Below are positions 8,584-58,800 of a DNA stretch of 64,000 nucleotides, in pieces. The notes under the pieces are model-generated. The model was given only the letters and a program-made list of their open reading frames with translations. It was not told the origin of the DNA and did no database searches. Origin of the DNA: Axinella damicornis (lineage: Eukaryota; Porifera; Demospongiae; Axinellida; Axinellidae). Each line of letters starts with the position of its first letter. The stretch's first letter is position 1. A program made the translations under genes and the position numbers. The stretch lies in the NCBI GenBank assembly GCA_963931865.1, contig OZ007506.1:2000531-2064530 (forward strand), in the 5' to 3' direction.

Positions 8584-12858
<4,275 letters not shown>

Positions 12859-13108
12859 CGCTCACACACCTCAAAAGGCCACTTTTATCTGCATCAAGTT
12901 CATCCTCCACTCTTGAAAACGTGTTCCTTGCCCTGATGGAGCCATAGGCATAGATCATAAAATCAATGAGTACAAAGTCCTCTCTGACCCACCACGTGTT
13001 GCGGGGCCCGTTAATTTTATTGAAAATTGTCATCCAGGAGACCCCGCGGAGTGTTTATTTCTCACAGGGGTGACTGCTCGTCACGAAAGCTACTGTACTG
13101 AGTCGGCC
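12859..13108. promoter_or_regulatory. Divergent promoter ADCK2 / ILK
   Basis: Only 250 bp separate the ADCK2 start codon (minus) from the ILK start codon (plus). The segment must hold both 5' UTRs and both core promoters, and I see no TATA box. The location is directly supported by the two gene models; shared regulation is inference. Confidence 0.6.
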
Positions 13109-18486: not shown

Positions 18487-18839
18487 TTGGTGTGTGTGTG
18501 TGTGTGTAGGGTGTGACAAGAGGGAAAGAAGAAGGCAGTGCCATCTTACGTCAACGATCATGACATGTTATCCTAGAGGATGTAGCTCAATGAGTAGTTG
18601 GCTGCCTAGTCATAGTGACAGAAAAACAGAGAGCCTTGAGAGATCTACGGAGAAGTAGAGCACACCTAATAATGGTAACTACATTGTACATATCCACATT
18701 TTGTTTCCTCACCGACCTGTATGTGTAGATCGATGAGGACATGACAGCGAAGCTGGACATGGCCCACACTCGTTTTTCCTTCATGGATAATGACAAGGTC
18801 TACAAACCAAACTGGGTGGCTCCAGAAGGTTGGGCGTGT

Positions 18840-18893
<54 letters not shown>

Positions 18894-19618
18894 ATACACG
18901 CCCGCAGATATGCATACATATGCACGCACACACACATGCATGCACCATTACTCTGTGTCTCACCCTCATGCTGTTAAACACCTATCCTCTTATCCTCTCC
19001 CCTCCTCTTCCTCTCCCCTCCTCCTCCTCTCCCTTTCCCTCCCCCACTCCATCAAACAATGCACCTTCGCGTATGTAGCTCTCCAGCACAGACCCGAGGA
19101 CTATGACAAGCGTGCTGCTGACATGTACAGCTTTGCGATTATTCTCTGGGAACTTGCCACTGGCAAGATACCATTTGCTGGACTCTCACCGATGCATGCT
19201 GGCATAAAGGTACGTGTATGCTCACGGTGTCTTCCCATTTGATTCCCACTTCATCAATTTCACTTCGTCAATTGTCATTGCCCACTTGGTCATTGTTGAC
19301 GAAGTGGGAGTTGACAAAGTGAAGTTGACGAAGTAGGAATTGACAAAATGGGAATTGACCAAAATGGGAAGCTCACTAGTGCGTGTGCTGTGTGGATTGT
19401 ATTCTGCATCTTCCCTTGGCCCAGGCGGGTCTTGTTCCACACTAAGTTGCCTACGTTTTTCCTTTTCCCAGATTGCTAAGGAGAACGCACGCCCTCTCAT
19501 TCCCAAGTTTGTCAACCACCATCTACAACGAATCATCGACATCTGCTGGAACGCGGACCCCAACAAGAGGCCAAGATTTGAAAAAATCCAACCCATCCTT
19601 GACAAGCTAGAAGTGTAG
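13109..19618 (+). CDS. ILK: Integrin-linked kinase (pseudokinase)
   Basis: Fourteen exons: 13109-13118, 13842-13950, 14361-14526, 15377-15472, 15729-15825, 15901-15948, 16056-16082, 16237-16322, 16898-17013, 17887-18008, 18317-18438, 18729-18828, 19079-19209, 19472-19618. Phases agree throughout, giving 458 residues (human ILK 452). Ankyrin repeats come first ([40 protein letters not shown]), then a short linker, then a kinase fold: GQGAYGE loop, VVVKKLK lysine, WVAPEA. As in known ILK the catalytic motifs are lost: the HRD position reads SRFDLN and the DFG position reads DMAHTRF. ILK binds PINCH through the ankyrin repeats and parvin through the pseudokinase, linking integrins to actin. The first coding exon is only 10 nt. 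Confidence 0.95.
13625..13765. repeat. Two-and-a-half-copy tandem repeat
   Basis: A unit of about 54 bp (CTGTGATGAACGTGTTCCAA...) is duplicated exactly, followed by a diverged partial third copy. It lies in ILK intron 1, just upstream of exon 2. Confidence 0.85.
13966..13990. repeat. Poly(G) tract
   Basis: About 25 guanines, 15 bp downstream of the ILK exon 2 splice donor. Confidence 0.85.
15215..15372. repeat. Polypyrimidine CCCCT array
   Basis: (CCCCT)n-like tract ending at the acceptor of ILK exon 4. It doubles as an extended polypyrimidine tract for that splice site. Confidence 0.85.
16323..16840. repeat. About 76-bp minisatellite derived from an exon-intron junction
   Basis: Six to seven copies of a unit containing CCAGGGGGCCTTCGGGGAG then TATCAACCAAGGCTA and AATATATTCATGGCAGAAG. 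The first half copies the end of ILK exon 8 (CAGGGGGCCTACGGGGAG) and the intron start (GTGAGTATCAACC), but each copy lacks the GTGAG of the splice donor. Poly(G) tracts interrupt the array at about 16344-16358 and 16779-16809. Confidence 0.85.
17083..17182. mobile_element. Fold-back MITE in ILK intron
   Basis: Ends TAGCCTCGTTCCCAGGCC and GGCCTGGGAATGAGGCTA-like inverse, core with GATCGTTTACAATACTGTAA. TGCATGCA flanks are present on both sides. Confidence 0.7.
17645..17845. repeat. Minisatellite CTTTGAGTTGTGAGTA
   Basis: Five to six degenerate copies of CCTAGCTTTGAGTTGTGAGTAAATG and CATCCTACCCTTGAGTTGTGA in the intron before ILK exon 10. Confidence 0.85.
18439..18508. repeat. (TG)n microsatellite abutting a splice donor
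   Basis: TG run starting at the donor of ILK exon 11 (GTGAGTTGTGTG...). The donor grades into the repeat. Confidence 0.9.
18840..18890. repeat. (CA)n microsatellite
   Basis: CA run starting 12 bp after the donor of ILK exon 12. Confidence 0.95.
19230..19372. repeat. Fold-back repeat of TTGACGAAGTGGGA units
   Basis: The left arm carries TTCCCACTTC.TCAATTTCACTTCGTCAA. The right arm carries TTGACGAAGTGGGAGTTGAC and TTGACAAAATGGGAA. The arms are mutually inverted around 19300. It lies in the last ILK intron. Confidence 0.7.
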
Positions 19619-27244: not shown

Positions 27245-30200
27245 ATGGAAGAATCTACAAACATCCGAAGTGTCCCAGAACTGGAAAGGTTTATTCTCAA
27301 GAACGTAAAGCGACCTGGTGAGAAGCCCAAGAAGCTGGGCACTGGATCATACGGGAGCGTTGAGGAGCTGGAGGATGGTGGCGTTACTTGTGCTGGGAAA
27401 ACACTGCACGATTCTCTGATTGACGTTCGGAATGAGGGAGTTGAAAATATCACGAAGAAGTTTATCAAAGAATGTCAGTTGATGGGTGACCTCCGACACC
27501 CTCACATTGTCCAGTTTCTGGGCATCTGCTTTCTTCCAGACTCTCAGCTACCAGTGCTGGTAATGGAGTACCTGACAAGCAATCTCGATCACCTGCTGCA
27601 GAAGAGTGTCTCTCTCTCCATTAAAACATCGATACTGTACGATGTTGCTCGAGGGCTTGCGTACCTCCACGGTCATAGCCCACCGGTCATTCACCGAGAC
27701 CTCACAGCCACCAATGTTTTGCTCAATTCTGCAATGGTAGCCAAGATAGCCGATTTTGGCAATGCCCGAATTGTTGACATCTCGCCAAACCAGCTTGCCC
27801 AAACCATGACGCGTGCACCAGGTACTACAGCATACCTACCTCCTGAAGCACTTGAGCCACACCCCCAGTACAACAGCAAGATCGACATATTTTCATTCGG
27901 TCACCTAGCCCTCTACACAGTCATCCAAGAGTTTCCCATGCCTACTGCTTCAACCTACACGGATCCAAAGGATAAAATGATAGTGGCACGCTCTGAAATT
28001 GAAAGGCGCCAACGATTCATTGACAAGATGGAGCAAATGCTCATCCTCAGCCCTCTGAAACAGCTGATTGTTGAGTGCCTCTGTAATGACCCTGATCAGC
28101 GACCATCCACAGAGAGAGTTGTGCCGCAGCTGGTGGAGTTGCAATCCCAGGTGACAGATCCGTACTGGCACATGGGAAAGCTTGAGATGATTGGGGCAAT
28201 GGAAGAGAAGCAGCAAAAGTACGACAGCGAAGCAAAGCATCTGCAGTCACAGATAATGGAATTGGAGGTATTGTTAAAGCTAGCCTCATTCCAAGGCACT
28301 ATCCTCACCTGGGAACGAGGCTGTGTTAAGTCTGTGGGAGGGAAGCACCTGCATTCATGCAGTTTCCAAGGCCATTCCTACTGCCAGTATTTGATGGCTT
28401 CCAGCATGCAAAACTACCGTATTTGCATACTGCAAGCGATCAAATACTGGTGGTGGGCCGGGAACGGCCTGGGAATGAGGCTACAGACATGTAGTAACTG
28501 ATAACTCACTTGTAAGAAATAATTTTCTGGGTTATTTTGCTACAAGAGTAAATCCCCTATAGAGTGAGTTGTTGGCAGCTTATCAGTTGTTCCCATACAC
28601 TGTATAGAGGGAAGTGAAACAGAAGAAGGAGGAAAAGTGGGCATTGCAGATGCAACTTGCTGAAGCGGAGGTGAAGGTATACACCCTTTAAACAGATGTG
28701 AAGTGTGTACCAATCAATACATGATATGCGACCATAAATAAGAGGATCCAGTAGTGCACAATGTCATGTGAGGAAGGTGTACTTCCAATTTACATGCACA
28801 CATTAGAGCTAGGGTTAGGGTTAGATGATGGGCAGGAGTTTATTATGAGCGCCACAAAGCAGTGTGAAGGAGCATACTTGTTAGGGTTCCATCTGTTGGC
28901 AAGTTAGCAGTAGCACAACCCACCTTATAGGGAGGGCTACAACTCACACTTACTTTGTTAAGAATCCTGTGAGGGCACGCATGCCGTAGCAAGCTCTTTT
29001 CCCCCCTCCTCCGCGCCTGGGTTCGAGGCTACCATGATAGCATACACAACACCTGCCCACCTACTTACGTGACGTCACACACAGTCGTACACGTACACAC
29101 ACCACAAAACGTGAGCAATTTTTTTATCTTTCTTTTTTTTTCTAATCAAATCCGTATAAGGGGTGGGGTGGGGTGTTGTGTGCTACTACCCTGCACCTGA
29201 TGCTTATGCTAGTTGGACGCTCCTTCCTGTTATGCGCTCCTGAATCTATTACAGACCAAGTCGGAACCTGATCCAATAGACAAGAAACAGCAGGGAACAA
29301 CCGATCTGGAGAAGACCGAAGTGCAACTAGCCCAACTAAAGGTACCTTCCTTGCCTTGGTTAAATTATGGATAAGCTGCTGTTAGCAAATGTGTGCTATC
29401 CCCAGTCAGAGAAGTTGGAGCTGGAAGCTCTCTGCCAGGGCAAGGACAAGATACTGGAGGCAAGAGCAATGGAGAGCCAGCAGCAAGCAGAGATTATACA
29501 ACTCCAGAAGGCTCAACTCGAGAAAATGGAGGTATTTTTCATCTGGTAGCCAATACTGTAATCTCACATTTTCAAGTGCTGATTGCTGACATAGGACTTG
29601 CAAACTACTGTACCACCTAAGTGTATGTTGGTATTGCGCTTAGATGCTTGGTAGCATTTCTATAGCCTCATTCTGAAATGATAAATGTCAATAGGGTGTT
29701 TGCCAAACCAAAGATGAAATCATTGCAGCAAGAGAAGCTGAAAGTCAGCAGCAAACCAAGATGCTCAAACAGAATCAGGTCAAGTGTGAGAAGCTCAAGG
29801 CAAAGATTGAGGTGAGACCTACTGACATCATTTTTCACTCTGTATCCCATTACCTAGGCAACGCATTGGAATGTTGCTCATATCTCTCCATCTTGTATGT
29901 TACTACCAGGTTGTTAGCCTCGTTCCCAGGCTCTCCCACACATGAACAAAAATTCAGAGAAAGGGAGAGCTTGGGATATTTTGTTACATGAGAAACATCA
30001 CACTTAATTGCGTGTGGGTGATCAAAGGATTCTGTGAATTGTTCTTGACACATATTGTTGCAGAGACTGCCAAAGCATGGCTACCGTCGATCTCCATGCA
30101 GTCCAGCGCTGAATGAGCAGGCTTCGCGCTGCATACTTGCAGTTAGTGTACCCACGACCTCTATACCCTTATCCCAGGCCTTCCCCGCTTTTTCCGTACT

Positions 30201-33200
30201 GTAAACAACGAAAAGCTGGGCGATGGCCTGGGAACGAGGCTACCGGGTTGTAACTTTTACAATTATTTTATGGATGTTGAATCCATTGTTTTGAGATTCT
30301 TAATAGGCTCTAGTTGTTAATTGGCTACCGCGATATGGAATTTGATTGCAGACTGATGGTGAACTTGTGCAAAATGTCAGGAAAGAGCAGGAGCAACAAG
30401 GCTGTTTGAAGTCCAGAGTGAAAGTGCTTGAGGTCAGTTTCAGAGAACCAACTGTATACCTATGGACTTGGATCCGGAGTAACTAAATTAGTCCCTGCAA
30501 CTAATAGCAGTGTGGTTGACTTGTTTACTGGCTGTGTGTATACCTGATAAATTGTGCAATAGCTGTGTGAAACGGTTTATTAGCAAAGGCCTCAAAGTCA
30601 CGGGACAGGTGATCATGCCCCACTATTCTCATGAGGTCATTCAAATGTTTCCAACGAACAAACTCATCTGTACAGCAGGCAGGGCACCTCGGACATCAGT
30701 GTCTAACGCTAGATTGCTATCAGTGTCTAACGCTAGATTGCTAGCGCTTTGCAATCGCTTGCTGTATACAGTCCAACACACACTAAATATCAGATGATTT
30801 GTCTGGAGTAACGAAACATCTTGTCAAATGTGATGACATAGATGTTGCTGACAGCATGAAGAAGTGTACGAAAAGTCGGTGGAGTAACCGAGTAGTGCCA
30901 GGGCAGAAGCTTAAGGTAAAACTTCGCAATGAGATTTGTCCGGTTATTGCTGAGGAGCTAGTGCCATTACATGTCAAGGTTGTCATTTGACTGTCTCTAC
31001 TACTATGCAGCAGCTAAGGCTACTGTCAGAGTGCATATAAACACTATCAATCACCAAAGCCTACTTAATCTAATGTTATGTTGTACCCTTTGCACCTATT
31101 TGTGGTGTGTGTTTCATAATCGGTGCTGTGTGCAATCGTTTCCATAGATACGCATGGCACGCAAAATTCTTGCTGTGGTCAAACCGACCCAGCCCTGAGA
31201 GTGTCTATAAACAATCTTTACAGATGACACCTTATCACCTCTCAGAAAGCAGTGGAATGTGGAATGCTCATAGTTCGTAACATGTCACTAGCCTTGTTCC
31301 CAGGCCTGCACCGTTTTCAGTTGCACGTGTGTGCAACCAAAAACAGCGTGGGCCTGGGAACAAGGCTAACATGTCACTGTACAGCCTTGAGAGTATGAAT
31401 GTTCCGAATGCATGCGTATTCAAGATGAGGATGGACAAATGCAGTATACAGAGTTTCCATGTTGGAATACCTATAAAACCAGTGATAGATCACCCCAAAC
31501 TGTCTATTGGGCTTTGGAACAGATTGTGGATTTAATTTGGGAGTCCGGCATGTCATGGAATACCTCTACATACAGCACGCACAGAAACGTGACCATTCTT
31601 GTACTCTTTCCTGGACTGCGAGAAGTCTGGTGGTTCTCAGCCTAATTTCAATTATTGATTTCTAGTTGGAAAGCTCTGCTCTTAAGAGGCTGTGTGAGGC
31701 CAAGGACGCACTCTTGGAAGCCAGGGAGACTGAGAAGCAGCAGTTGGAAGCTGTCCTTGAGCAAAGACTAAGGGAAATGGGGATATCACACGAAGATCTG
31801 GAGGGTGGAAAGCCTGAAAGTGAGGTGAGGTCTACAGGTTAGGTTGTTTGCTGCAACTTCTTGCAATGTATGAAATATGTTGCACACTACTGTCTATTGC
31901 AGCACGAGAATCCACAGGCTAAAACAGAACCAGCTAGCAAAACAGACGGGAAAAAGGTATATTAAGCTAAGCACACTGTATAGTTCTTCAAGTAAGAGCA
32001 CTATATAACCTATGAAGTAACCAGGTGCATAGACTCCCCCTGCTTTACATTTAATGGGGGGTGCATACTGAAAACTGAGCAAAGTTTGTTTTTCACAAAG
32101 TTGTCCCTAAACCATCTGAATCCTTTTCATTCTGAAGAGAAGCCCTACAAGTGCATAGGGTCTATAGACAGCCATGATTGGGACTTAATGGGTTTTTAAC
32201 TCTTGATATAACATAAGCCAGAACAGTTTGAGAAATGTGAATGAAGCATGCTCACTTTCCCTTGCAGCAAAAGAAACCGAAAGCCAAAATGGAACCAGCT
32301 AGCAAAGCAGATGAGCAAAAGGTACACAGTACACATGCATTCACTGTTTTCCTGAGCAAGAGGTGTCAACACTATAGCTTGAATTAGCTATTCACCTCCA
32401 GTTTATTGCCACATGCATGTTACAAGCTAACATCTAGAAGCTGGAACTGCATGTGAACGTTAGCAGACCATAGCCTCGTTCCCAGGCCCCATCCGATTTT
32501 CGTATGGGGCCTGGGAACGAGGCTAAGCAGACCAATGTTGACTTGTTGCTAGTAGGGTTTATATGGTGTTGATAGTGAAACCTGTTGAGCTTTCTTTTAC
32601 AGCTTCAATTATCCAATTTGTAGTTGTGAGCTTTAATTAAACTGGGGTTGTAAACTGAGCCTGGAAAAGAAATTGCTATCTCAAGCAACTTAAGGTTACA
32701 GGATACTCATGCGTGCGCCGCGCCAAAGTATACTGGAAGTGCATGCTGAACCAAAAATAAAATCATGGGACTCGAACTGGACCATGTAAATGGTGTTAAA
32801 TAGTCATCAAGGGCACATAAATGGCACGATGGAAGCTACTTTGCAAATTTATCAGCTGTCGTGATTGAGAAAAGTGGCTAATGCTGCTTTTTGGTGTGCG
32901 GCTAGCCTCATTCCCAGGCCATCTGCCGCTTCGTTTTTAGTCGTATAGGCCTACATGACCTTTGAACCCCCATCAGATAAGCTGACGGGGGTTCAAAGGT
33001 CACATATGCGACTAAAAACGAAGTGGCAGACGGCCTGGGAACAAGGCTAGCCTGCGGCGACTATCCCATAACCTTAAGATGAGTATCGAGGTCGCAGCTC
33101 TCCTTTTGAGAATTGTACAATGCGTCAGGTCAAGAACTTATACATGATTGTGAAATTATGAATTCAAGATCAGACTAGCTAATGGAGCTGCCCTGTAGTG

Positions 33201-33878
33201 CCTCATACCTCTGTGTCACACCCATAGATGGGTGAACAAAGTGCAGAAAACGAAGAACCAGCTGCAGGTGTAGGACTTACAGCAATCAAAGTTGTGATCC
33301 TTGGTGATGGAAGTGTTGGAAAGACATGCATGCTCATCAGCTACACGTCAAATCAATTTCCTGGGGAATATATTCCAACCATTTTTGACAACTACTCTGC
33401 TAATGTTATGGTTGATGGGGTGCCTTGCAACATTGGACTGTGGGATACCGCTGGACAAGATGATTACGACCGATTACGGCCACTTTCGTATCCACAAACT
33501 GACGTTTTCCTCATTTGCTTCAGTGTTATGAGCAGGAATTCGTTTTATAATGTCTCTGATAAGTGGGTGCACGAGGCAGCAGACCACTGTCCCAAAACAC
33601 CCTTTGTGATTGTCGGGCTCAAAACAGACCTACGGGAAGACAAGAGAGAAGTTGAAAAAATGGCTGAATACAGGCAGAAGCCAGTAACCACCAAAGAAGG
33701 AGAAGAACTGGCTAAAAAAGTCGGAGCAGTGAAGTATGTCGAATGTTCTGCAATAACCCAACGTGGACTGAAAAATGTTTTTGACACTGCTATCAGGGCT
33801 GTCTTTACCGATGATGTGCCGGGTACCAAAGAACATACACCCAGGCAAAAGAAGCGGAAAGGATGTATTCTTCAGTGA
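27245..33878 (+). CDS. Protein kinase - coiled coil - Rac-like GTPase fusion
   Basis: Model of ten exons, all GT-AG and all phase 0: 27245-28267, 28608-28676, 29255-29341, 29406-29531, 29695-29811, 30352-30432, 31666-31824, 31903-31956, 32268-32321, 33228-33878; 806 residues. Residues 25-300 are an apparently active kinase: LGTGSYGSV loop, K52 in CAGK, E76, HRDLTATN (150-157), ADFG (169-172), PPEAL. Residues 305-560 are glutamine/glutamate-rich coiled coil. The last exon is a complete Rho-family GTPase: [17 protein letters not shown] switch [14 protein letters not shown] switch II with the Q61 equivalent, a Rho insert, ECSA, and a polybasic CAAX end (KKRKGCILQ; final Q favours farnesylation). 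The G4 motif is LKTD instead of TKxD. The last exon begins with ATG directly after a CCCATAG acceptor, so it could instead be a separate gene. The matching phase, the lack of another terminal exon and the 16-residue acidic extension favour fusion. Confidence 0.7.
31289..31368. mobile_element. Fold-back MITE with 9-bp TSD
   Basis: Ends TAGCCTTGTTCCCAGGCC and its inverse, flanked by identical ACATGTCAC at 31280-31288 and 31369-31377. Confidence 0.85.
32030..32205. mobile_element. Partial relative of the piggyBac-like MITE
   Basis: Shares AAGCCCTACAAGTGCATAGG and a TTAATGGGTTTTT end with 7920-8073. The left end is not recognisable. It lies in an intron of the kinase-GTPase gene. Confidence 0.5.
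32471..32525. mobile_element. 55-bp fold-back MITE with 9-bp TSD
   Basis: Ends TAGCCTCGTTCCCAGGCCCC and its inverse, with a seven-base spacer region. Flanked by identical AGCAGACCA at 32462-32470 and 32526-32534. Confidence 0.9.
32903..33049. mobile_element. Long-hairpin MITE
   Basis: Near-perfect inverted repeat with about 70-bp arms (TAGCCTCATTCCCAGGCC ... CTTCGTTTTTAGTCGTATA, and the inverse). The inner arms read TGACCTTTGAACCCCC. It lies about 180 bp before the GTPase exon. Confidence 0.8.
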
Positions 33879-34350
33879 TCTTACTACATACTCTTAAATG
33901 ATTGTGTTTCTAACTTAAACAATTAGATTATGGAACTCATTGCCTTCATTCAATTGTTGTTGACTATAGTAGCATTGGAAGTCTAATGCAAAAGTCGGCT
34001 GTATTTGGACTTCCGTTTTTCACTTCACTGTGTGTATACAGTGTCTTATGTCCTGTTTCTCTTTGGGTTGTTTCATTTGTGCTTGTTTCATTTGTGCTTG
34101 TTTGCTTGCCCTTTCGTTCCATTTTGTAATAGCCTTGGCTTTGTAATATGCTTGTTAGCCTCGTTCCCAAGCCCTTCCCATGGCCAGCTTGTCATTGTTT
34201 ACAGTACATTCCTTGTACAACCGAATTACCAAAAATGGCACAGGCCTGGGAATGAGGTTACATGTTGGTCACTGCGACTCCATGGCTAAAACCTCTGTTG
34301 AAGAATAAATTTAAGAGGCTGAGCATACACAACTGTAACAATGTGGTAGC
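33879..34350. other. Convergent 3' region, kinase-GTPase and GCP4 genes
   Basis: Holds a fold-back MITE at about 34156-34261 and the AATAAA signal for the plus-strand gene at 34304-34309, only 42 bp from the GCP4 stop codon at 34351-34353. The two transcripts therefore nearly or actually overlap at their 3' ends. Confidence 0.6.
34304..34309 (+). terminator. AATAAA polyadenylation signal
   Basis: Canonical signal 426 bp after the GTPase stop codon, in the 3' region shared with the convergent GCP4 gene. Confidence 0.6.
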
Positions 34351-37300
34351 TTAAGTCTTGAAACTACCCAGGGTTACAGAGGCAAGAGGGTTTTGGGTGC
34401 TGAAGAACTTGTTGTAGTCCACTCTCAGCAGTAGTTGTGCCAGGTGGGGGGCAGAATGGTGGCTCTTGACACTGGAAACAATCTTGAAGAACAGCGAAGA
34501 CTGCCTCTTGAAGTCCTACAAGGATATGGTTATGGGAGATGATTGACTCTCAACATGTATCAATGCAAACTTGTCATAACCTTGTAGCTGTTGAGTAGTC
34601 TCGCACCCAGACCACACCCCCCACGAGGGGGGGTGGTCACATGAGTCTAGCTGTTGAGTATAGATGCTCAGCTTGATACAATAATAATGGATGTGAGTAG
34701 GTCCATGCAAACAACTGGCACGTGTCCACTGCACCCATCCCTATCCAACATCTCAGGACATCTCAGACTATCAGTACATATTGGGATGTGTGCACCTTTG
34801 CAATTCTCTCCACTCTGGCCCTGTCGTCTGCTGACAAGGACAGGTCATCTCGCTCATGTAGCAGGCTACTGAAGGAGTTGCACAGCTCTAATATCTCATG
34901 GAGACAGTGAAACACCTGAGGTCAGAATGGAAGCATTTCCATGTCACTGCCAAAAAGCCCAGCTCATGCATATCCAAGGCTGCAGGTGAAATATTTCTGG
35001 CCTATATCAGCAGAAAATTAGTAAGATAATAATGGGAGGGAATTGAATGCAGCATATATAGCATGATTTAGCACTGTTGTGGCAAGCTATAGAAATGTGC
35101 TCAGTGACACCACATCCCCAAACTCACTGCTGGTAGGAGAAGGAACAGCTGAGACTGCAGTGATGTGACAAAGTTCTCATGGGCATGTTGGATGGTCTCA
35201 AAGTCGTGAGTGGTGCTGACCTTATCCAGAAGATGAGTAAACTGGGTCTCCAGCACATCAACCTACAAGATGACCAGAGAAGAACTCATTACCAACAACA
35301 TTTTGACTACCACACAACCAAGAATGACCACACCCAACAGTAGCCTCATTCCCAGGCCCCGTCCGAGGCCTGGGAACGAGGCTAGTCCAACAGTACCTGC
35401 ACATAGTACTGGAGGTTATCAACCAGGAACCCCATGTGTGTCCTGAGCTCCCAGATGGCTCTCAGCTCCACTGCCCTGCTCCTGAACTGCATCAAATGGG
35501 CCCAGCTCTGCTGGAGCCCCGTCTGTGCCCGCCGGAGTGCCAGAAGGAACCTGAACAGCAGGTTGTACCTGAGATGAAGAGCAGACAGGATGGAGGAAGA
35601 CCAGTCTTGAAACAACAGTTACTATTTTTGTACCTAAATAGCAAGTTTGAATTCCATTGTGTTTGCTGTGTATTCAGCTTCATAATATAGGTTGGACCAA
35701 GCTTCAAGGAACTGTTATCCAGTGGAACAGATAGTATAGAGATAATTATACCTTAATGTAAATGTAATCGTACTTTTCTAGTATGGCTGGTGTGAACAGA
35801 ATGTGAAGGGGCCAGCTGACAGAGTGGGCAAGATTGAGGTGCTTCCATGCACTCTCCCCCTTCTTTGCAGAGAGTCCAGACCCCGGTGGCCTCCTCTCCT
35901 CCTGCTGGGGCAGAGTCACAGCCAGTGTGAACTGCTTCATCAGGTCTTCGTTCTCCATGCCCACCTTCACCATGGCCTGCTGGAAGGCAACATTCACATC
36001 TATAGAACAGGGGGAGAGAAAGAGAGAATTGATGGGACAGAGAACATGAGCATGAGAGTAGAGACATGGAGACAGTGGAGGGAGGAGAGAGGAAGAAGTG
36101 AGGGAAATGGCTGGCAGTTTCTTGAATCCAAGTGGAGGAGGGGCTCCAGTATCCTTACTTTGTTGCTCCGCTTGTAGACCAGAAATGTAATCCCTACTTC
36201 AGACATAGGTACGTACCATGCTGAGTAGTTGCAGCAGGTGGGAGACTCATGAATGGCTGGGCGAGGTCAACAAATGCAAGGTACAGCTCTCCTCTTCCCA
36301 GCAAGAAAAAGTCTTTGACAGTCTGCAAGGATAAATATATGCCATGTAGAAGCCTGTAATGCATGCATAGTTAATTGTTGAAACGAAATATCAATTCCTG
36401 GCTAGATGGGAAGAGTTTAACTGAGGAGGGGAAATCTCTAACCTGTAGGTGCCCTACAAGATCTGACTCTTCCACTAGCAGCTTCCAAAGATGCTAAGAT
36501 ACAGAGGATGAAATTTCACATGATATCACATGTTCTCACACAATGGTCACATGACCTAATCAAATGATCACATGCTGGTTATAAGGTTGAACAGAGGTAT
36601 ACCTCTGCCACACAGTCCCTAATGGAGTCAACAGTGGTTTCAAACTCTCTTAGCTGAAAGACCGGCTGTCTCTGAAGCTCCGTCAGCATCTGGCCGAAAC
36701 GGAACTGGTCTGACCTCAACTTGGAGCCTGCATGTATTGGCATAAGTGAGGAATGAGGTGGCATGAATGGATTGCATGGTGTAAGACTGGTTTTGGAATG
36801 TAGTTGAGCACATGGGCAATGACAGGCACGAACAGATTCTAATTCAGTGACAGTCTAGAGCGAGTGTGTATGACCCACCTGCTCCCGTCAGAGCGGTAGG
36901 AAGTCTCTGGTGTTCGTGGACCTGGCTTTGGAAGATCTGAACTGCCTCACCCACAAACAAAACCTGCAGTAGTGTTCAAGAAAGTTACATTCCTCCTAAC
37001 CATGTGTGGTTCTCAAAAAGACCACATTTCGACCAGCCATACGCAATTCATATACAGACCACAATCAGTCCAATCATAGGACTGCATTGGGCATATATAC
37101 AGGAAGTAGAAGTAACAGGAGTATATTTTCACCTTTTCAATCACTCTTAAGGGGATGTATGATGGAGTGAAGGTGTGGTTAATCCTGAACATCCTGCTGT
37201 GCCCAGCAGCTGCCAAATCCACTACCTGTGATTGGCCAGTCTCCCCAGCACTCTCTTGTCCACCTGTTCCTGATGGGTCACCCTGGGTAGATAAGCCAGT

Positions 37301-44136: not shown

Positions 44137-47100
44137 CTTCTTAGGGCCAGCTAGGCCAAGTGCTCTCTCGGCTGTTTCCCTTCAAGCGGGGACTTTGCCA
44201 CGCCTACTGGGCACCCAACGTGTGGGCACTGTACAACATAGTGGACAAAGCCGCAGCAGTGATTGGTGAGCTGGCACTGGAACTTCTGCACAACAGGATT
44301 AATCTTTGCTTGCTGACTAGACTTGCTCAAAATGGGGTTCTCCAATTATCAAGAAAGACACAGTAGTAATCAAAAATGACAGATACAACTCCATATTTGG
44401 ATGATTTTTCATACATTTAAGGCTCTTGCAAGTCATCCATTTCACATACCTACCAAGGATCCATCCCCTCATGACGTGGCTGCTCTCATTCTCACTGGTA
44501 GGCTCTCGTCTCCATCTCCTTCCCCCCGCTCCTACCAGCAGCAGCATGACCTCTGGACTGGTAGGAGAGATGCAGCACCAAGTGCTCCCCTCTGTTGCCC
44601 CCTTGGTTACCGTGGTAACCACACTGGCAGCAATGATAGTGAGTACTTTTGAACATTATCACTGGTGGAATAGACATTAACGCACAGTTTCTCTGCCCTC
44701 CCTTTCCTCTCCTCCTCCCTCCCTTCCCTCTCCTGCCCCCTACCTCCCCTCTCTCTGTTCTCCGCTTCTCCNNNNNNNNNNNNNNNNNNNNNNNNNNNNN
44801 NNNNNNNNNNNNNNNNNNNNNNNNNNNNNNNNNNNNNNNNNNNNNNNNNNNNNNNNNNNNNNNNNNNNNNNNNNNNNNNNNNNNNNNNNNNNNNNNNNNN
44901 NNNNNNNNNNNNNNNNNNNNNNNNNNNNNNNNNNNNNNNNNNNNNNNNNNNNNNNNNNNNNNNNNNNNNNNCCTGATGTGTTCCGGTTTGTCATCTCTTC
45001 ATTGCAAGCATTGCTTATCAACTGCAGCTTGCTTGCAGTGGAGAGCGGCCGCTATGCACGGGTGTTCCTCCTCCTCTCCACCACTGGCCATGTTGCTCTC
45101 TTTCCGCTGCTCTTCAAGCCGGCAGGTACATGTAAACATTACGTCATCAGTCAGGAATTCCATTGGTCAAGAATTTCTACATAACCTACCATAGATACAT
45201 AACTGCTCAGTACAGGCACGTAGTAGTGTATGGTCAGCTATACATAGTTCGCTCAGTCTTTACATGCAAGATACTCTTCAGGATGAATTTAAAGTGCAAA
45301 TCAGCCTTCTCGACTATAGAACGACTTTCCATTATGTCATACAAAATGACAGCGCTGTCCTACCCCCTGACAATTTTTCTTACCACTACCAAAAAATGAA
45401 TTTTAAGTGTGTCCTGTATGAATAAGGTTATATAATTACCAGCTGCAGTTGATTGCTCTCAAGGTACTTAGGTTTATTTATTTAGATACAGTTATTGTGT
45501 AGTGTGGAGTAGTATTAATTGGTAGATTAACAGGTGTGAACTGCTATTGGGTTTCCATGTGGTGACTTCACTGAACTTGCCCACTGTTACAATGACGCCC
45601 ATGTTCTCCTTCAGAGACACCTGTTAAGGTTTCCCTCTTCTGTCTCTACACTGTAATGGCATTCACAGCTCTCCATGTCACCTGCAGGTGAGCAGACTGA
45701 TCAGTGTTACCAATAGTGCACGATGACATCATCGTCATTGCGGGTTGGGTCAATGACGATGATGTCATCATGCGCTCTTGGTGTTACCTAATTCAGTGTT
45801 CTCTTGCAGCTGACCGGCTCTTGAATGAATCCAAGATCTGCAAGAAGTTTGATTCTTGCTTGGAATGTTCTAATCCAACACAAAGCAACATTGTACGTAG
45901 TTTATAGCTTGCGTAGTATTAGAACAAAGGCGGTCTAGCATGTGCTCACTGAGGCATGTGCGGAAGGCAGAGAGGGTCTAGTAAATTCTCACTAGCCAAT
46001 CTGATCGCAATGAGCCCTATTCGTTGCAGTTTTATTCATCCTCATGGTTGTATACCACCGAGCTGCTCGCATGTGACCGGTCTGACCGGCCTGACCGGCC
46101 TGACCGGTCTGACTGGCCTGGTGGAGAGAGTCTAGAAGTCTAGACAGGAGCTATACTTGCCTGCCTGAATCCAGGATACAGAGCTCGTCCTCAAGTCTAA
46201 CTGGCACCCCACCTGTACATAGGTACACACAAGAGTTTACAACAGTCACTTTCATCTCAGGGTGGTATGATGTAAGCTGATGAGTATGATGTAAGCAATT
46301 AGAGGTGAACAAGTAAGTGAATATGTTTAACACCAAGCCCTTCTTGGACACCTGTGTAGTATAGATCAGTTTCATAGCGCTATGGAACTGGAGGGCATTA
46401 CATCACCGTGCTGCCTGTGTGAGAAATAAAAGTGAGTGAGAAACTAGGAGAATGCAGGGCATTGTGGGGCTCGCCTGATAAACGTGACGTACTGCATGTC
46501 AATAATCATTCTCTGAGTGATCATAGGCTGGGAGGCCCGGGCGGCGCGGCGCAGCTTATAAGGGAAGCTGGGGGTGGGGTCTGCGATGTAGCCAATTGTC
46601 ATTCATCACATTGACGGTCTACAGTTTCAAGTTCTTGGTAGCCTCATTCCTAGTCCCACGCCTAGCTTTTCGTCGCTTGCCGTACTGCAAGCGACGTACG
46701 GCAAGCAGTGAAAAGCTGGGCGTGGGACTGGGAACAAGGCTGCTACACTGTACCTGAGAGGAGTAAGCTTACCTTGCCCCAAGTTGCCGAGAGAATCTCT
46801 CCCTCCAGCTGACCTCTGCAGCTCTCAACAAGTCTGTAATACGTAGTTTGTAGCACCAGTGTAAAACATAGCAGGCTTGATCCGGTACTGTCGTGCATTA
46901 TGCAAGGTGACTTGTACGCGTGTTGTCCGGATTCAGCACGCAGGCGGGCGGCGCAACACTACGATTTTCCACTTGGATATACGGTCATACGCTAAACACA
47001 CCGGACGTCGGACGGACACTATCTGGACATCTGGACGGACGGACATCCTGAAGAGCACGACTATGTGGGGCTCGCTCAGGCTCGCCCCAAGAAATTCAGT

Positions 47101-55800: not shown

Positions 55801-58800
55801 CATGACCTGCTGCATTGTGCTTACCTGGCAATGTCATATTTGTCTTCCGGCTTGCGTTTTCCAGAAGGAGGGAAGTGGAAGTAGGTAGGAGCAGTGGTGA
55901 GGTGCAACTGGAGGAGGAAGGAAGGTGGAGAGGAGTGGAGAGGAGGAGAGTGGAGAGGAAGGAGAGGAGAGAGGAGGGTGGGGAGAAAGGAAGGTGGGGA
56001 GAGAGGAGGGTGGGGAGAGAGGTGGGTGGGGAGAAAGGTGAGAGAGACGTGGGAGGGGAGAGTACGGTGGGGAGAGAGGTGGGTGGGGAGAAAGGTGGGT
56101 GGGGAGAGAGGAGAGTGGGGAGAGAGGTAGGTAGGGAGAGGAGAGAGGTGGGTGGGGAGAGATGTGGGAGGGGAGAGAGGAGGGTGGGGAGAGAGGTGGG
56201 TGGGGAGAAAAGTGGGGAGAGACGTGGGAGGGGAGAGGAGGGTGAGGAGAGAGGTGGGTGGGGAGAAAGGTGGGTGGGGAGAGAGGAGAGTGGGGAGAGA
56301 GGTAGGTAGGGAGAGACGTGGGTGGGGAGAGAAGTGGGAGGGGAGAGTGGTGGGTGAGGAGAGAGGTGGAAGCAAGGGTAAGGTGCAACTGGAGACGGGG
56401 AACCACAGCAGCCCTCGTCTCCAGTATACATACACACACTGCATACTCTTCGCCCCCTACATGTACATCTACCCACATCCTTTCTTCTCTACCCCCATAC
56501 CGTAGGCGTTCTAATTATGCGTCGCTCAAAACATAATTATTTTTGAAATGCAATGCAACAATAGAAATTCGGTCAGCCAAAACTTCGATGCATGATTAGA
56601 AAACACCTCGCTAGATACGAGTGTAGACAAGGCTATTGCATAGCGGTTGCGTTTGTTCCCGGTTGTCGGACTGTCGCTGCCTTTTCTCCTACATGGAGCG
56701 TCCGTATCCTGGGGCACAGAATACATAAGTGAGTTGCTTTCTCGTACCTTCACTGATGTCCCAGCCATATCGCAACTGTGTCTTTATACATGTACATCAA
56801 CGTTTTTGTGATGAGCCCTCTTCGCTGTTCAACTGTACTGTGTGCGCTTCGAGCTAGCTGCCATGCTGCCATTATAATCGCGTTACACAAATTAGTCCCC
56901 GGAGTGTGACACATTATCGGTTTGAGACATTGAATTTTGACGCAGAATTAGAAAGGACGCATAATTAGAGCCCCTACGGTAACTTTTCTGATTTATCTCT
57001 CACTCCTTCCTTCCCTCCTTCCCGCCCTCACTCGAGTACCAAAACCTTAAATCTCCCTCTCCTCCCCTCATTGTAATAGCCATCCATCTTTCCTGTAACC
57101 CCTTCCCTCGTGTCTTCACCTGCTGAAAGGCATCCATGCCATCTTCATCAATGTCCACCATGATAAAGAACAGCTGCGAGGAATACTGTTGAGAGTATCG
57201 CCAAGAGTTGGCTACAATCAGGTACTCATCATACGCTTCCCTAGAAGGGGGGAGAGAGGGAGAGAGGGAGGGATGGTGGGAGGGGAGGAGGGAGGGTGGG
57301 AGGAGGGAGAGTGGGAGGGAAGAAGGGAGGGTGTGAGAAGGGGGAGGAAGAGAGACAAACAAGAGGAGTCAAGGAGATGAAGATTCAAGGTGATGGGAGT
57401 CAACAGAATAGTCACTCTCACTCACTTGCAGATGCTACACTGGCGTTGAGGCTTGAGAGCTGTGAACATGGCTATCACGGAGTAGTTGCGCGGCTTGCTG
57501 CGGACATAGGTACTAAACTTGTCTGAAGAGAGAGTGATGATGGAACGTCTTGTACTCCATTCTAGCAGCTGGCTCACCCGATTCTCCAACTTATTTGCAT
57601 TCTGGGGGTTGAACAAGAGACACATCAAGTCAGGATAGCATCTCGTCAGATCAAGATTTTGTCTCCAACATACAGCTGAAAAGACTGGACAGAGACTAGC
57701 TGAGAGGATTTACACCATGTAAGTGCCATCAAGAGATGTCAATGTTTGACACTGTATTTGTAGGGCTTCTTGTGAAAAACTCCTATGCACCCTTTATGGG
57801 TTTAGGGCCAAGTTTTGGAGTCAAAGTATAGAGGTGGCGCACGGCTGGACATGTTTCATCTATGACAAAAGAATGGTAGGCTCTAGGAAATGCAAACGGT
57901 TTCAGTACGTTGAACGTCACTGTCAAGACTGGAGAGGTTTAGTGAATTCTTAGTACTTTCCACGTCATTGAGACAGGTTCGAGAGAGCATCCTTGACCTT
58001 GTGTATAATTTAATTTTTACGAAAAATGCATTTTTGCCAGTCAAAATGGTGCCCTAGCAACTGTAGCCTCGTTCTCAGGCGCTCAGAGAAGAGCGCCTGG
58101 TATTCACTGTTCACGCATGCGTGAGCAGTTCCATTACATTCTCCATATAATTCATCAAGATACGTAAGCTGAAATAACACGGACAAATATTCGGTAAAAT
58201 ATACGGCTCCAGCATCACGCGAGGCCATGGTTGTGGACGGCGATGTGCTGCTTCCGCCTTTCTGAAGTGGACGCGAAGCACGATACAAACAGTAAGACCC
58301 CATAAATAAATTCGACCTGGCCGTATCAGCGTATGTAACCATACAAACACATTCTTGCCATTATGTATGTGCTGTATTGCTGTCAGTTGTTCGCCCTCAG
58401 CACCATTCCTGACTTTCCGACCTTACCAAGGGCGTATAGAGCTGCGTCTTGTAGATGTAAACGACTCCCGTGTTTCAGCAATGTACGGTCGTGCAACACG
58501 GACTACTATAACAGTAGTTTCCAAGTTCCCCACAAAAACCTGGGGAGCTGCACATGCGTGAACAGTGGATACCAGGCGCTCTTCTCCCCAATTACCGAGC
58601 GCCTGGGACTGAGGCTATAGCAACCGTTGCTAGATGCAAGTGACATGAATGCACAACCTCTACATGTACATACAGCTGTGACCTTGAGTAGTGTGATCCC
58701 ATATATATATACACGTACAGCTGGCCCATACACTGTACATCTTGTTCATCACGCACATACCCCAAATTATGCTGCTGCCATGGATTCATTATCATGCTCC

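Follow-up and report, generated by a model that had tools for sequence, protein, structure and literature searches.

Does a single sponge gene encode a protein kinase and a complete Rac-type GTPase in one chain, or do two genes lie side by side? The question arises at a locus of the demosponge Axinella damicornis (assembly GCA_963931865.1, contig OZ007506.1), within a stretch of 64,000 nucleotides (positions 2,000,531 to 2,064,530 of the forward strand), hereafter the window. There, an initial annotation had joined ten exons between window positions 27245 and 33878 into a protein with the order kinase, coiled coil, Rac. Our analysis leans towards two adjacent genes on the same strand, one for a kinase with a coiled coil and one for a Rac-type GTPase, in preference to a fusion; the weights attached here to this and to the competing readings are judgements, not computed values.

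Much of the annotated structure was recovered when we rebuilt it from the DNA. The ten blocks, all with lengths that are multiples of three, give an open frame of 806 amino acids without an internal stop, and the nine introns between them have GT–AG ends (9/9) and lie in phase 0 (9/9; Table 1). The identities of the encoded domains and their order along the DNA also agreed with the annotation. The single chain itself fared less well, as the presence of exon 10 in the same messenger RNA is unproven and in our judgement somewhat less likely than two genes. Splice sites were scored throughout with generic matrices. The exon scan and the terminal-exon scan used a codon model trained on kinase open reading frames (ORFs), and the exon scan recovered five of the nine exons downstream of exon 1, missing exons 5, 6, 8 and 10.

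Exon 1 encodes an entire kinase domain (Pfam Pkinase, 8.2e-42) in which K52, E76, the HRD motif (150–152) and the DFG motif (170–172) are intact, in keeping with the annotated kinase being apparently active, as far as motifs can tell. The kinase fold, the VAIK lysine, HRD and DFG identify it as TKL-like. Its relatives in the PDB include CTR1, TNNI3K, IRAK4 and RIPK2, which we take to be TKL-group kinases, and also the Roco4 kinase; EGFR and plant receptor kinases are likewise among the best 60. Judged from its sequence, the stretch encoded by exons 2 to 7 is coiled coil. A 3.5-residue hydrophobic periodicity runs through residues 395–560, crossing the exon boundaries from exon 4 through to exon 8, and was matched by none of the shuffles (0/2000); over residues 319–570 the same test gave p = 0.0025, which upholds the annotated coil of about 250 residues. 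The signal is weaker over residues 305–395 (p = 0.04), the best window of 42 residues gave p = 0.048, and the control regions gave p = 0.29 (kinase) and p = 0.73 (GTPase). The coil of one database kinase, P0156, resembles the exon 4 region, at 27% along 150 residues with E = 3.6e-4. Such a tail would probably make the kinase a dimer or oligomer.

Exon 10 encodes a complete Rac-type GTPase (Pfam Ras, 7.3e-52), with Rac1 as its best solved relative (284 bits). Counted in the 806-residue frame, GDGSVGKT lies at 616–623, DTAGQ at 663–667 and CILQ at 803–806; motifs G1 to G5, Rho-type switch regions and a CAAX box are all present, and the predicted full Rho-family GTPase ending in a prenylation box is thereby confirmed at the level of motifs and profiles. 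In the alignment its G4 motif reads LKTD, against TKLD in Rac1, which suggests altered nucleotide exchange. There is no intron near residue 53 of the window GTPase, where the Rac-like locus L005 has one.

The single chain is weakest in how this exon begins. Its first codon is ATG, directly preceded by a TAG stop in the same frame, which the initial annotation did not mention, so the GTPase ORF needs no upstream exon to be complete. The exon could thus start translation alone, although a genuine fusion could still retain the ATG. The nine phase-0 introns lend weak support to the last join, because an acceptor that abuts the ATG is in phase by definition. That acceptor stands at the 92nd percentile of window AGs on the generic matrix (exon 2, 88th; exon 7, 94th; exon 5, 44th): it is plausible and usable, but silent on which exon precedes it. 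Among 30 kinase loci, nine have an AG right before the first ATG, all with acceptor scores of 0.5 or less; an AG before the start is therefore a common start context, and one argument against two genes is weakened. An acceptor scoring above 0.5 lies within 30 bases upstream of the ATG in 13 of these 30 loci, and by eye there are possible acceptors 3 and 7 bases before the ATG in L003 and L004, which we labelled RhoA-like.

With two genes, the first would be a member of a TKL-like family with a coiled-coil tail, and the second, 0.9 kb on, would encode a Rac-type GTPase from an intronless coding sequence that has a start codon of its own and adds a short acidic stretch at the N terminus; the predicted product is an ordinary prenylated Rac-like switch. 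To our knowledge Rac fusions are rare, which we counted in favour of two genes. The AG before the GTPase ATG would be the 3' end of an intron in the 5' untranslated region (UTR), a trans-splice acceptor, or chance. We likewise counted for two genes that trans-spliced leaders have been reported from a glass sponge (PMC10282587). Occasional read-through splicing could still yield the 806-residue chain, because the AG is phase-compatible with the last known kinase donor. The ORFs, their domains, the start codon and the relatives are what the sequences show; we infer the use of the GTPase ATG, the end of the kinase gene and all functions proposed here.

Relatives of the GTPase point the same way. 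In a database search that scored 7987 candidates and listed the best 120, the closest listed matches were P0248 and P0249, ORFs of 213 residues that are about 80% identical to the window GTPase. Both begin MDEQREAPAAGVGL, with MDEQ against MGEQ in the window and a 3-residue length difference further on, so that the start appears to be common to relatives. In the tree, the window GTPase, P0248, P0249 and P0266 form one clade (100/100) among Rac-type rows, which joins a sister clade of eight rows (95/98); forks are partly open and two rows from the sponge's own genome are long-branched. All eight sister rows have CxxQ boxes and most have an N-terminal extension: MQ(P/S/L)KK lies within the first 17 residues in 5/8, two start with MYGI(I), and one (P0273) has no extension. 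The window GTPase shares with this subclade the extension, a leucine at the canonical start position, a basic tail and a CxxQ box (C(V/I)(V/I/L)Q in the subclade); it differs in sitting 0.9 kb behind a kinase–coiled-coil gene. Because relatives share both features, neither the extension nor the loss of the canonical Rac methionine is a mark of fusion here. P0248, P0249 and the subclade presumably come from sponges.

We also considered whether the extended N termini of P0265, P0288, P0299 and P0274 could be read-through introns ahead of an exon without a start, an idea that we dropped on the protein sequences: a Met start is common to P0347 and P0274, a glutamate stands in P0347 where the CAG was presumed, and MQ(P/S/L)KK recurs in five ORFs. 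A search of viral and GTDB contigs for DNA of relatives gave a single weak match, at 24% identity, besides six on bacterial-labelled contigs, with none sponge-labelled. L041–L044, on bacterial-labelled contigs of Zetaproteobacteria, Robiginitomaculum and Maricaulis metagenome-assembled genomes, hold Rac-like GTPases of 49–62% identity and may represent contamination or bacterial genes.

No fused relative appeared when we ran BLAST both ways: a kinase–Rac protein was absent from the 120 listed of 644 kinase-side matches and from the 120 listed of 469 GTPase-side matches in the length range of the fusion, most database matches being seemingly ORFs of unspliced DNA. Several Rho matches of fusion length resemble gene-model chimeras, such as those named LRRC45. 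Within the genome, comparing 37 Rho rows with 120 kinase rows by eye (118 of 679 kinase candidates scored) revealed no other kinase–Rho neighbours within about 100 kb, and around the Rac-like L039 (C12) 8.9 kb held no kinase or coil match at E up to 1.

The kinase side belongs to a very large family. Matches to the kinase exon occur in at least 118 places of the 226-Mb genome, the window's own included, and many of these are clustered on C5, C8 and C14. Identity to the best-scoring paralogues is 50–53% along almost the full exon and reaches 63% in shorter matches, and a single kinase exon of about 340 codons is common to family members. The window gene, with coiled coil following its kinase exon, fits a family of kinase–coiled coil–C-terminal domain proteins. 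Uninterrupted ORFs of about 690–810 codons encode kinase, coiled coil and Kelch in L035 (by Pfam) and in L036, L056 and L057 (by sequence), and in our gene model the paralogue L016/L047 has a kinase exon, phase-0 coil exons and a Kelch exon. Among database ORFs, P0147 has a second kinase behind the first and the 642-residue P0227 has an AIG1-type GTPase (1.3e-8) behind its kinase. A domain behind the kinase, even a GTPase, is thus usual in this family. Three of the 120 listed kinase-side matches are named, and their source is the sponge Geodia barretti. The window gene resembles this TKL-like expansion in its single kinase exon, its coiled-coil tail and its phase-0 coil exons (as in the L047 model); the difference is that none of the 120 listed members has a Rac domain.

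The size of this family, some copies of which carry in-frame stops, also raises the reading that one or both genes at the locus are decaying or unexpressed, the open phase-0 chain then having no product. Since the catalytic motifs are preserved and each part keeps a long open frame, we regard this as very improbable.

Several observations weigh against two genes and keep the fusion a credible, if less favoured, reading: one 806-residue chain of kinase, coiled coil, duplicated linker and Rac, in which the kinase gene would have taken over a stand-alone Rac gene as its last exon, by way of the 5' acceptor that the Rac gene already had. All nine junctions follow the same GT–AG, phase-0 rule, and the exon-10 acceptor is similar in strength to those of exons 2 and 7. 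Exon 9 is a duplicate of exon 8 (the two agree at 41 of 54 bases, and their acceptors and donors match); since exon 8 is spliced, exon 9, if used alike, must splice to something downstream, and the kinase gene shows no clear end. Non-repeat sequence between exon 9 and the ATG amounts to an estimated 455 bp or so. None of the 57 AGs in that gap gave a phase-0 terminal exon of at least eight codons with positive coding and acceptor scores, a result that counts for little because the related scan missed four of nine downstream exons, exon 10 included; no donor in the gap scored above 1.5, though real donors of the model go down to 0.3. On the plus strand of the window an AG directly precedes 75 of 1318 ATGs, and in none of the 30 kinase loci does an acceptor scoring above 0.5 exactly abut the ATG. 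In different members of the kinase family the C-terminal domain already varies between Kelch, kinase and AIG1-type GTPase. The first methionine of the database ORFs, which seem mostly to be unspliced DNA, was chosen by the ORF caller.

Two further points can be added for the fusion. Rac1 stands behind an N-terminal partner in the solved NPH1–Rac1 chains 2wkp–2wkr, and the start of exon 10 bears a weak DNA likeness to exon 8 (codon-shuffle p of about 0.03). On the other side, besides the ATG of exon 10 and the lack of a fused relative among the listed matches, the coil appears to be the last domain in other family kinases (L010, and L012/L049 in a gene model built in this analysis). Exons 8 and 9 show no strong constraint, as eight of the 11 codons that differ between them change the amino acid and three are silent. 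Per codon, exons 1 to 7 score between 0.11 and 0.31 and exon 10 reaches 0.01; the codon model cannot judge the GTPase exon, given its training on kinase ORFs and that near-zero score. If the fusion were real, the coiled coil could pair two chains, and GTP-bound Rac with its prenyl anchor and basic tail could bring the kinase dimer to the membrane, with the nucleotide state gating or localizing the kinase, by analogy with DAPK1.

The duplicated linker bears on one more reading, in which the GTPase gene starts in exon 9, giving a longer Rac from exons 9 and 10, and the kinase gene comes to its end at exon 7 or beyond it. Exon 9 has an in-frame ATG (11 codons, ATG included, before the donor), and reading past exon 7 reaches a stop after five codons. 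Yet no donor of the model scores better than that of exon 7, and the duplicated exons 8 and 9 also match in their splice sites, which makes such an arrangement improbable. That the linker at the start of the GTPase is a third copy of the duplicated exon was rejected: the codon-shuffle p is about 0.03, and the likeness is equalled in 16 of the 591 coding 60-mers and in 23 of the 7467 genomic ones.

As for where a separate kinase gene might end, the top acceptor of the gap (32603) leads into six codons and a stop, followed by ATTAAA at 32636; the sole AATAAA of the gap (32756) falls in the larger of its repeats. The gap holds a palindromic repeat at 32471–32525 and a larger one at about 32686–33081, within which another is nested at 32902–33050; the larger repeat occurs in at least three other places and the nested one has many more genome copies. 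The short palindromic repeat, with ends TAGCCTCGTTCCCAGGCC and GGCCTGGGAACGAGGCTA, has 54 matches (at most two mismatches) in the 64 kb, where 100 shuffles gave a mean of 0, and lies inside introns too; examples are 32471–32525, 32902–33050 and 35341–35384. It looks like a very abundant miniature inverted-repeat transposable element.

How new would a kinase–Rac chain be? The initial annotation held that ROCO proteins place the GTPase before the kinase, which overlooks DAPK1: this metazoan protein (ROCO group 3) has its kinase ahead of the Roc–COR GTPase, and GTP on the Roc domain reportedly inhibits it (PMC6337361). Kinase-then-GTPase order in an animal is therefore not new, and the locus would share it only if the fusion were real. 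A full, prenylatable Rac behind an animal kinase would be new within the literature searched; our searches of titles and abstracts found no report of a kinase–Rac fusion. The annotation was right that the partner differs from a ROCO GTPase. We know of no prenylation of DAPK1. DAPK1 has Roc–COR rather than Rac, ankyrin repeats, a death domain and a calmodulin-dependent kinase (PMC6337361, PMC4917528). LRRK and Roco4 likewise combine a kinase and a Ras-like GTPase in one chain; they differ in having the GTPase first and a COR domain (PMC6337361). Exon 10 scores 74.4 bits with the Roc model and 175.6 bits with Ras, the Pfam matches of exons 1 and 10 include no COR family, and nothing follows the CAAX box of the GTPase; judged by its predicted domains, which lack Roc followed by COR, the locus is not ROCO. 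The NPH1–Rac1 chains (PDB 2wkp, 2wkq, 2wkr) resemble the proposed fusion in having Rac behind an N-terminal partner; we take them to be engineered, photoactivatable LOV–Rac1.

The features of the locus and its surroundings are listed in Table 1.

Table 1. Features of the kinase–GTPase locus and of the rest of the window (window positions)
Feature	Position	Strand	Description
Exon 1	27245..28267	+	Kinase domain, 341 codons, TKL-like; K52/E76/HRD/DFG/PPE
Exon 2	28608..28676	+	Coiled coil; exon scan found it with donor 6 bases earlier
Exon 3	29255..29341	+	Coiled coil; found by exon scan
Exon 4	29406..29531	+	Coiled coil; found by exon scan
Exon 5	29695..29811	+	Coiled coil; missed by exon scan; weak acceptor
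Exon 6	30352..30432	+	Coiled coil; missed by exon scan
Exon 7	31666..31824	+	Coiled coil; highest-scoring donor of the model; found by exon scan
Exon 8	31903..31956	+	Lys/Glu/Pro-rich linker, tandem duplicate of exon 9; missed by exon scan
Exon 9	32268..32321	+	Linker, second of the duplicated pair; splice sites match those of exon 8; found by exon scan
Intron 9 or intergenic gap	32322..33227	+	906 bp; about half mobile-element-like palindromic repeat
Possible alternative end of kinase gene	32603..32623	+	Top gap acceptor, then LQLSNL and stop
Possible 99-bp 5' UTR intron of separate GTPase gene	33129..33227	+	CAG/GTCAAG ... CCATAG/ATG, weak donor
Exon 10 or stand-alone gene	33228..33878	+	Rac-type GTPase of 216 codons; starts with its own ATG, N terminus extended by 17 residues, ends in CILQ box
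AATAAA 3' of GTPase stop	34304..34309	+	Sequence motif
Conserved ABC1-type kinase piece	11551..12861	-	
Partial kinase-like exon	18745..19242	+	Pfam matches below cut-offs; presumably resembles integrin-linked kinase
Conserved gamma-tubulin complex component piece, C-terminal domain	35104..35618	-	
N run in assembly	~44700..44970		X in translations
Conserved OST3/OST6 piece	57003..57368	-	

As separate genes, which is the arrangement that we favour, the locus would yield a small GTPase of the ordinary kind and, as a second product, a TKL-like kinase that forms dimers. Were the fusion true, a natural single chain of kinase and Rac would amount to a built-in Rac-to-kinase relay, and would show a large kinase family evolving by exchange of its C-terminal domains. 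Even without a fusion, the kinase family, with its at least 118 places in the genome, and the Rac subclade with its shifted start merit a survey.

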